The notes beneath the pieces were generated by a model that ran no database searches, was not told the origin of the DNA, and saw only the letters and a list, made by a program, of their open reading frames with translations. A program made the position numbers and the translations under genes. Shown piece by piece: positions 29,636-30,375 of a stretch of 64,000 nucleotides of DNA (its first letter is position 1; every line of letters begins with the position of its first letter). Location of the stretch: assembly GCA_022071975.1 (NCBI GenBank), contig JAJVIO010000014.1, forward strand, positions 1-64,000. Direction: 5' to 3'. Source of the stretch: Planctomycetota bacterium (GTDB taxonomy: Bacteria; Planctomycetota; UBA8742; UBA2392).

Positions 29636-29720
29636 CATACTTCGCGGCCAAGCGGATCGAGCACTTCAATAAGCTATGGCCTGCCATACGTAGCGGCCCT
29701 CTTTACGCGCGAGCGGAAAG
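29636..29720. repeat. 85-bp direct repeat, copy 1
   Basis: Identical to 30047-30131 except for one base (TTTACGCG here, TTTCCGCG there). It starts CATACTTCGCGGCCAAGCGG and ends GCGAGCGGAAAG, 2 bp before the stop codon of the GIY-YIG gene. Both copies are in the same orientation, 411 bp apart. Confidence 0.95.
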
Positions 29721-29722
29721 GC

Positions 29723-29965
29723 TTACAAGAAGTGTCGCTTGGCAAATGCGTTTCCGGATCCCGTCTTCAGGTACTTCTCGAATTCTCGGGCTCTCTGCTC
29801 ATCCGCGAACCGCAACACGACTACATACTCCCAAGGCATCCATTTGGACGTGTGCTTGGAGCCTCCGCTGTTGTGTTCCTTCAGGCGGCGCTGGATGTCA
29901 TCTGTTATGCCAAAGTAGATGCGGTCGGGGTGGGATACGCTGCGAATGATGTAAACGTACCACAT
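29723..29965 (-). CDS. small GIY-YIG nuclease-domain protein
   Basis: 80 residues from the ATG at 29965, which has an excellent AAGGAGGA ribosome site. The single domain shows WYVYIIRS (GIY part), IYFGITDDIQRRLKEHN (YIG part with catalytic Arg) and a closing FEKYLKTGSGNAFAKRH with the conserved Glu. This is the stand-alone GIY-YIG (UPF0213/YhbQ-like) family, whose members nick or cut DNA; biological roles are mostly unknown. The gene nearly fills the space between two 85-bp direct repeats beside tRNA-Ala, which suggests a mobile or site-specific unit. Confidence 0.88.
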   Translation of the reverse strand: MWYVYIIRSVSHPDRIYFGITDDIQRRLKEHNSGGSKHTSKWMPWEYVVVLRFADEQRAREFEKYLKTGSGNAFAKRHFL

Positions 29966-30046
29966 GGTCGACCAGTCCTCCTTCGCCAAGGGTTGCTGCG
30001 CAACGTCCGCTTGCCAACGCACTGCGTTGGCGCGGATGGAGGACAC

Positions 30047-30131
30047 CATACTTCGCGGCCAAGCGGATCGAGCACTTCAATAAGCTATGGCCTGCCATAC
30101 GTAGCGGCCCTCTTTCCGCGCGAGCGGAAAG
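30047..30131. repeat. 85-bp direct repeat, copy 2, with hairpin
   Basis: Second copy of the 29636 repeat. Here the last part joins a hairpin, CGGCCCTCTTTCCGC / GCGGAAAGAGGGCCG (15-bp stem, GCGA loop, about 30103-30137). The first 14 bases (CATACTTCGCGGCC) recur inverted at 30134-30147, so this copy is a closed palindromic unit of about 100 bp whereas copy 1 is cut short. Confidence 0.93.
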
Positions 30132-30145
30132 AGGGCCGCGAAGTA

Positions 30146-30171
30146 TGGTGGACCGGAGGGGAGTCGAACCC
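30146..30171 (-). repeat. duplicated 3' end of tRNA-Ala (att-like)
   Basis: 26 bp identical to the 3' end (T-loop, acceptor strand and CCA) of the intact tRNA-Ala at 30300-30325. The rest of the tRNA is absent. A repeated tRNA 3' end is the standard footprint of integrase-mediated insertion, though no integrase is present; the copies are 154 bp apart. Confidence 0.9.
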
Positions 30172-30299
30172 GCAAACAGTCCGGTGGACTGTTTGCGACG
30201 CGAAGTAGCCCGGCCAAAGCCCGCCCATAGGCGGGCGACGCCGGGCGTAAACGAAGCGGTCGCGCGAGTTAGCTGCTTCGCGCGACCGCTCTTGATTCC
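30172..30299. other. hairpin-dense spacer between tRNA-end copies
   Basis: Three strong stems in 128 bp: CGCAAACAGTCC/GGACTGTTTGCG with a 3-nt loop (30171-30197), GCCCGCC/GGCGGGC with a CATA loop (near 30219-30236), and AGCGGTCGCGCGA/TCGCGCGACCGCT (near 30257-30292). The last may terminate tRNA-Ala transcription (minus strand). No gene. Confidence 0.75.
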
Positions 30300-30375
30300 T
30301 GGTGGACCGGAGGGGAGTCGAACCCCTGACCTTCTGAATGCCATTCAGATGCTCTACCAACTGAGCTACCGGCCC
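30300..30375 (-). tRNA. tRNA-Ala (anticodon GGC)
   Basis: 76 nt including an encoded CCA. Acceptor GGGCCGG pairs with CCGGTCC, giving the G3:U70 pair that marks alanine tRNAs. D arm AGCTCAGTTGGTAGAGC, anticodon stem TCTGA/TCAGA with loop ATGGCAT (anticodon GGC), T arm AGGGGTTCGACTCCCCT. Intact and presumably functional. Confidence 0.97.

Follow-up and report, generated by a model that had tools for sequence, protein, structure and literature searches.

Several described systems combine a small nuclease with short repeats or with tRNA genes. The Ssn family of Neisseria meningitidis comprises GIY-YIG site-specific endonucleases that act on single-stranded DNA and are associated with NTS repeats, and nuclease-repeat pairs of this sort are already in print. 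Free-standing homing endonuclease genes of the GIY-YIG type are selfish, reside at a conserved site and pass through gain, decay and loss, and the 3' ends of tRNA genes are the classical landing sites of islands mobilized by tyrosine integrases. The window analyzed here, i.e. the whole 64,000-nucleotide stretch from a Planctomycetota genome, contains a locus that can be compared with each of these. Like Ssn/NTS, it has a small single-domain GIY-YIG protein adjoining short repeated hairpin-like cognate sequences, but here the repeat is fused to the CCA ends of tRNA or tmRNA genes and the nuclease gene lies downstream of the tRNA. The repeat adjacent to the gene is represented by two hairpins, H1 and H3, and two nuclease lineages, alpha and beta (see below), are accompanied by different hairpins, their putative cognates. 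It shares with the homing genes the character of an apparently selfish nuclease gene at a conserved site, for which both occupied and empty alleles exist, and differs in the presence of solo hairpins, the lack of a DNA-binding domain and insertion at different tRNAs. As in the tRNA islands, the target is a tRNA 3' end and the tRNA stays intact; unlike them, the element measures only a few hundred bp, has no integrase and shows no attachment-site duplication of its own, i.e. it is not bounded by an integrase gene and an att duplication. Inverted pairs of short hairpins accompanied by solo copies were found, and this arrangement resembles that of the REP/REPIN-RAYT systems, in which, according to PMC3733652, opposed short hairpin pairs occur beside one nuclease-type gene together with non-autonomous solo copies. 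Here, however, the gene beside H1 and H3 in the window encodes a GIY-YIG protein in place of the Y1 tyrosine enzyme, and the target is a tRNA 3' end. By analogy, the element may work like a REP/REPIN system with a GIY-YIG nuclease substituted for RAYT, or like an Ssn/NTS pair tied to tRNA ends.

All parts of the locus are on the minus strand, in the order tRNA-Ala, 128-bp insert, 26-bp copy of the tRNA end, H1, spacer, inverted arm, H3, GIY-YIG gene and an 85-bp partial copy of the element (29720-29636), after which the next gene is a GNAT gene. The tRNA-Ala(GGC) (30300-30375, called by ARAGORN and by the Rfam tRNA family) is intact, has an encoded CCA and serves as the anchor of the element. 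It is followed by an insert of 128 bp with hairpins, termed here "kind B" (30172-30299), which is missing at the equivalent position in a relative, G002. The sequence-only reading had noticed a 26-bp duplicate of the tRNA-Ala 3' end, and this is indeed present as an exact copy at 30146-30171 (the original being 30300-30325), where it forms the right-hand duplicate of kind B; a 26-nt exact repeat at a spacing of 154 bp is beyond chance. The CCA of this copy (30146-30148) is the present foot of H1 (30095-30148), which comprises the CCA and the start of the element and forms a stem with a 3x3 internal loop, TTC versus TAC. The conserved core CTACGTATGGCAGGCCA, located with the core pattern, occupies 30088-30104, and the inverted third arm (30044-30060) is a 17-nt exact complement of CACCA plus the left end of the element. 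H3 (29975-30044, GTCCTCC ... GGAGGAC) is interrupted by an insert of about 45 nt, while its counterpart in G002 appears by eye to be uninterrupted. The nuclease gene (29723-29965, ATG start, TAA stop) encodes 80 amino acids and matches PF01541 with an E-value of 4.2e-15, as the earlier reading had led us to expect. Of the three hairpins which that reading placed before the tRNA, two were recovered by computation as inverted repeats between the 26-bp copy and tRNA-Ala (30171-30197 and 30255-30290), and the third, a 7-nt GCCCGCC/GGCGGGC stem between them, is seen by eye alone; the nuclease element's own hairpins, H1 and H3, lie not in this interval but between the 26-bp copy and the gene.

The 85-nt direct repeats that had been taken to flank the unit exist (29636-29720 and 30047-30131, 99% identical), but they do not delimit it. 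The upstream copy is an inner part of the element, from the right half of H1 to the inverted arm, and the second copy lies 3' of the gene. We therefore rejected these repeats as element ends or as a target duplication: they represent an internal duplication, which as such is missing in G002, where by our own reading of the sequence just a short remnant of the 85-bp repeat is found 3' of the gene. Target-site duplication of the nuclease element was not found, and the element is delimited at the tRNA side only. The reported lack of an integrase holds for contig C15, which has 0 integrase matches, against 8 matches elsewhere in the genome. This genome also has a tRNA neighborhood of the usual integrase type, in which tRNA-Cys(GCA) is followed after about 270 bp by a tyrosine integrase match (G000:C25:6030-7028). 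Consensus promoters and terminators are absent from 29560-30520, which is weak evidence, because shuffled sequences are expected to contain fewer than one of either (0.4 and 0.9, respectively). Elsewhere in the window, at 28919-29098, minisatellite-like runs of GGAGGCA and of its reverse complement are found on either side of a short stretch.

Comparison of the hairpins among loci reveals a common plan. The element starts right after the CCA of the tRNA, and the base of H1 usually includes this CCA. H1 reads CCA-nn-C, TTC, stem-loop, TTC (or TAC), G-nn-TGG, hence its stem contains the CCA of the tRNA and encloses a 3x3 internal loop. The H1 region of the window (30085-30148) folds as DNA with -26.6 kcal/mol (z -7.5) and matches R1, our covariance model of H1, with 33.4 bits, and for the 107-nt strand comprising H1 and the inverted arm the folding energy is -39.2 kcal/mol (z -8.9). 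For the 26-nt H1 copies of loci L157 and L168, 33 and 40 of 200 shuffled sequences, respectively, fold as well. Counts of the variable pairs taken from our alignment A2 are circular, because A2 was chosen for pairing. The fair test is provided by junctions parsed with a pattern that does not require pairing, which recognized 40 of the 60 junctions from named genomes and left 20 unparsed: in 34 of the 40 both variable pairs are Watson-Crick, compared to a mean of 10.2 and a maximum of 19 in 10,000 rounds of shuffling. In two subtypes, Mesorhizobium alpha and Brevundimonas, the stem begins after the CCA instead of including it.

An exact inverted copy of the left arm, at least 7 nt long, is present in 49 of the 60 named loci and in none of the 60 after shuffling of the element bodies. 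It ends two bases inside the CCA in 33 loci, and stops short of the CCA in 13 of the 49, some of which may be arms of H3. The inverted arm of one Mesorhizobium locus (L221) reaches 14 bases inside the tRNA, which could reflect elongation of a folded-back end on the tRNA. H3 mirrors H1 and has internal loops of the GAA type; at least four of its five outer pairs can be formed in 44 of the 60 loci, while shuffled spacers yield a mean of 1.1 and a maximum of 3 such loci (50 rounds). We also considered a known RNA family as the source of the hairpin region and discarded it: in 20 loci searched against Rfam this region remained unmatched, and matches were obtained for tRNA, tmRNA and SRP RNA alone.

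The protein is a single-domain member of the GIY-YIG superfamily. Tyr5, Tyr17, Arg27, His31 and Glu63 are invariant in 13 sequences, and we take these residues to have catalytic roles (with Glu63 as the presumed catalytic glutamate). The predicted structure has a pLDDT of 95 and its fold matches SLX1 and HIGLE; together with UPF0213, these are the nearest solved sequences and folds. SLX1, which according to the titles of the matched structures cuts branched DNA, differs in that it acts with SLX4 and within a larger protein, and UPF0213 is not known to be associated with tRNA ends. There is no DNA-binding extension beside the 80-residue domain. The dN/dS ratio ranges from 0.04 to 0.18 in 13 intact pairs, and the sequence comparisons indicate that the protein is under purifying selection alongside frequent decay. 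A role as a defense gene was rejected, as the PADLOC matches are weak (best E-value 2.7e-4).

The sequence-only reading had staked its case on a general link between this nuclease family and tRNA genes, and such a link was found. The genome that contains the window encodes two stand-alone GIY-YIG proteins (plus one match within a 652-aa frame), whose genes follow tRNA-Ala(GGC) and, in the case of the second (59% identical), tmRNA, on the same strand. A search of 99 genomes, from the window's own genome out to the phylum, listed 45 matches in 24 genomes. Of the 13 strong matches, 9 are preceded on their own strand by a tRNA or tmRNA gene whose end is at most 700 bp away, with no instance of any other placement. 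For the weaker matches, of which 17 loci out of 32 were obtained, the corresponding number is 4 of 17, with 2 further tRNA/tmRNA genes upstream on the opposite strand and 3 downstream on the same strand, i.e. the weaker relatives are less strongly tied to tRNA ends. In named genomes, the same arrangement, with the end of a same-strand tRNA or tmRNA gene no more than 700 bp upstream, is found for 60 of the best 80 of at least 563 relatives, while the other placements among these 80 amount to 2 (upstream, opposite strand), 1 (downstream, same strand) and 2 (downstream, opposite strand). From about 60 tRNA/tmRNA genes in 4.24 Mb, the chance of such a placement is estimated at 0.5%. The 60 loci include members of Planctomycetota, Alphaproteobacteria, Verrucomicrobiota, Acidobacteriota, Nitrospirota, Thermodesulfobacteriota, Saccharibacteria and TM6.

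Inspection by eye of the 20 loci without such a gene revealed a gradation of tRNA remnants. Three (L148, L167, L173) still have the T-arm of a tRNA or tmRNA together with its acceptor end, three (L165, L179, L206) a shorter or degraded piece, and five (L169, L178, L183, L195, L201) just a CTCCA-CCA end before the hairpin. The remaining nine (L154, L163, L186, L193, L196, L200, L205, L207, L209) have no visible tRNA piece in the upstream sequence, which for some of them is short; among all 20, six (L154, L178, L193, L196, L205, L206) have less than 460 nt upstream. In a tree of 82 rows, which is based on few columns and has unsettled bootstraps, the 62 labeled rows comprise tRNAs for 12 amino acids and tmRNA (14 rows), and the identity of the tRNA changes at least 35 times (a count without a shuffle baseline). 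The phyla change 31 times, compared to a possible minimum of 16 and a shuffle mean of 43.6; as they are thus more clustered than in the shuffles, part of the descent is vertical. Plasmids and phages yielded no GIY-YIG match at an E-value of 1e-6. Three viral contigs do have a GIY-YIG match, with no tRNA called in the DNA examined; in one of them (L347, an IMG/VR contig, 1344-1441) a tRNA-Ser-like 3' end is followed by an H1-like hairpin and then by a GIY-YIG gene of 49% identity. In a Nitrospirae genome (L189, 2802-2901) a bacterial small SRP RNA gene lies just downstream of the GIY-YIG element.

The 26-bp duplicate had been regarded as the integration mark of the nuclease itself, and this interpretation does not survive comparison with relatives. 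In G002, which has a 95% identical GIY-YIG gene at the same locus, the CCA of tRNA-Ala is followed directly by H1 and the gene, with neither the 128-bp insert nor the 26-bp copy; in G001 the same tRNA-Ala is followed by an ordinary hairpin and then the GNAT gene. The 26-bp copy is therefore most simply explained by a separate insertion of kind B, and from these comparisons the window locus would most simply have received two insertions, kind B having lodged between the tRNA and the nuclease element. In the genome of the window an exact 25-nt copy of the gene's own 3' end occurs downstream of 11 of the 63 tRNA/tmRNA genes (a count that leaves out an ARAGORN call without a CCA end at window position 46460), always within about 290 bp, and only the copy in the window has an adjacent GIY-YIG gene. 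Since each copy matches its own tRNA, a single fixed attachment site is not their source. What remains of the sequence-only reading is thus an integrase-free GIY-YIG element targeted to tRNA genes, without the 26-bp duplicate as its mark. At tRNA-Arg(CCG) and tRNA-Gly(GCC) kind B is found in tandem with a period of about 154. The kind-B loci are window 30146-30299 and L045, L046, L047, L054, L058, L068, L070, L076, L082 and L083, and some of the inserts apparently contain an inverted copy of the T-arm, as judged by eye.

Hairpins also occur without the nuclease gene. Exact matches to the core pattern number 9 in the window genome; they are distributed over five genes, and each is found no more than 650 bp 3' of a tRNA or tmRNA. 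With up to one mismatch the 51 matches are largely background, as the reversed pattern yields 35. The R1 model gave 123 matches in 15 genomes, 78 of which (mainly with E-values below 1e-4) were examined. Thirty-seven of the 78 coincide exactly with the CCA of a tRNA or tmRNA, and 28 of these are not part of the model itself; another 7 are found up to 300 bp downstream of such a gene, and for the other 34 no tRNA was called at that distance. By our own tally, the foot of these 34 is CCA in 13 cases, including two or three that follow an apparent tRNA end, and differs from CCA in 21, which resemble dispersed repeats. The matches on tRNA CCA ends mean that solo hairpins exist at tRNAs without the gene, and they are found at several different tRNAs with unrelated flanks. 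Among the tmRNA sites of the window genome and 19 relatives, that of the window genome is filled, G006 has a solo H1 in a genome without any GIY-YIG match, and G001, G002, G004 and G005 have ordinary hairpins.

Occupied and empty states of one site can be compared at tRNA-Ser(GCT) of Mesorhizobium, where 61 genomes were searched and the 30 sites with the highest similarity were inspected; the next gene, encoding a porin, was found at 25 of them. Four sites are empty, with 132-133 bp from the tRNA to the porin leader; seven contain an alpha gene with the hairpin TCCTGCTTCGC, eleven a beta gene with a CCCTACGCCC-type hairpin, and the remaining eight have hairpin remnants or other sequence. The beta GIY-YIG proteins share 33-44% identity with alpha in the ten cases found by tblastn (the remaining one, L336, was assigned by eye). 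All filled sites begin at the base after the same CCA, and several of the genes are frameshifted or interrupted by stops. One and the same tRNA-Ser end thus hosts two unlike pairs of GIY-YIG gene and hairpin, their remnants, or nothing. A protein that is under selection and is nevertheless frequently lost or replaced fits the expectation for a selfish gene.

Gain, decay and loss at one site are also expected for a free-standing homing endonuclease, which would cut the empty double-stranded tRNA 3' end and let break repair copy the element in, with the hairpins in a protective or regulatory role. The Mesorhizobium alleles, decayed ones included, fit such a cycle and GIY-YIG is a homing-nuclease fold, but we consider this explanation unlikely: allelic homing does not produce solo hairpins at different tRNAs with unrelated flanks, the hairpin covaries and differs with the protein lineage, and the 80-residue domain lacks a DNA-binding extension. 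A host function, in which the co-expressed nuclease would process or repair tRNA and tmRNA transcripts and the hairpin would be an RNA structure in the trailer, seems to us improbable. It would explain why the gene is close to a tRNA on the same strand in 60 of the best 80 of at least 563 relatives, why many hairpin bases contain the CCA, which in RNA would sit on the tRNA 3' end, and why selection is purifying; however, within one genus the gene is gone, decayed or swapped for an unlike pair at the same tRNA, just 24 of the 99 genomes searched have a match, and the phyla are mixed on the tree, though not freely.

The other two alternatives assign mobility to other enzymes. With 28 Y1_Tnp matches in the window's own genome, RAYT enzymes could move some of the hairpins, and around some Y1 genes hairpins similar to H1 but with a CCC foot are nested in REPs. 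This is clearest at L354 (G000:C11:66687-67019 and flanks), where REPs on either side of a RAYT gene hold such a hairpin in their loops. It is nonetheless highly improbable that we are dealing with ordinary REP repeats mobilized by RAYT (Y1) transposases, with the GIY-YIG gene as a mere companion, as the 8 RAYT loci read all lack a tRNA at distances up to 1.5 kb, the REPs at those loci are mostly other hairpins, and in the 60 tRNA loci the gene that follows H1/H3 is GIY-YIG (going by the adjacent gene alone). We give almost no credence to a remnant of an integrase-borne island in tRNA-Ala, with the 26-bp copy as attR and the nuclease as a passenger. A copied tRNA 3' end is a classical mark of integration, and the kind-B spacer has one weak, dispersed match of 75% identity at C82:3912, some 1.1 kb away from an integrase hit (C82:2366-2767), but the idea of an integrase remnant is already contradicted by the absence of integrase matches on C15, by the G002 element that lacks the 26-bp copy, and by the copies following 11 of 63 tRNA genes, each matching its own tRNA within about 290 bp.

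The explanation we favor, and regard as rather more probable than all others combined, is a minimal selfish REP-like element at the 3' ends of tRNA and tmRNA genes, spread by its own hairpin-recognizing GIY-YIG nuclease. The element would then probably consist of the mirror-image hairpin pair H1/H3 and one gene for the putative hairpin-recognizing nuclease. This explanation builds on the observed position and orientation, the exact junction after the CCA, the covariation of the hairpin, presence and absence at one site, the occurrence of two unlike pairs at a single site, the solo hairpins at further tRNAs, and the purifying selection on a protein whose gene often decays. As for nicking, choice of target, insertion and movement, we infer the following course. 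H1 would be extruded as single-stranded DNA during replication or DNA uptake, and while the strand is single the nuclease would nick the foot of H1, at or beside the CCA; we propose nicking at this place by analogy, because SLX1 cuts branched DNA and Ssn cuts single strands at its cognate repeat. Host repair could then join the released strand with its hairpin end, whether or not it includes the gene, to a different tRNA gene that ends in CCA, or copy it into that gene, with the near-universal T-arm and CCA of tRNA genes acting as short homology. Downstream of a tRNA the gene could be read through from the tRNA promoter and the tRNA would be left intact, so that the insertion is proposed to be both harmless and expressed.

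A literature search, which covered titles and the beginnings of abstracts, mainly of open-access papers, found no GIY-YIG genes or hairpins of this kind at bacterial tRNA 3' ends; judged by comparison with the known pairs, the new part would be the tRNA anchoring of a nuclease-repeat pair, which is absent from the literature searched. The siting at tRNA ends across many phyla points to a tiny selfish element whose targeting of tRNA genes does not involve an integrase, and hence to a second route to tRNA 3' ends, in which an 80-residue nuclease and two hairpins use the same anchoring base in many phyla. More tentatively, and with slightly less than even confidence, we propose a phylum-spanning class of mobile elements without integrase or transposase, whose first stem is built on the CCA of the tRNA and whose 80-residue GIY-YIG hairpin nickase also ferries hairpins that lack the gene between tRNAs. 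If so, related palindromic repeats said to lack a dedicated transposase may move likewise. According to PMC3733652, the CGTC-type REPs, including dRS3 of Neisseria, are apparently without a dedicated transposase, and a GIY-YIG enzyme is a candidate for their mobilization. The element described here would thus offer a candidate mobilizer for a group of palindromic repeats and may account for many small orphan GIY-YIG genes, and Mesorhizobium offers natural empty and filled alleles.

Two further observations concern the tRNA genes of the window genome. Downstream of nine of the 63 (a count without a control) lies a long, nearly perfect palindrome, the left arm of which starts inside the tRNA and includes the CCA, e.g. 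at window 48725 (tRNA-Ser GGA), C3:54683 (tRNA-Pro) and C56:5221 (tRNA-Val). These palindromes often complement tRNA-specific bases and look like products of fold-back copying of the tRNA end. A dense array of more than 12 tRNA genes on one strand (L078, G000:C11:47000-52000) is perhaps a mobile tRNA cluster.
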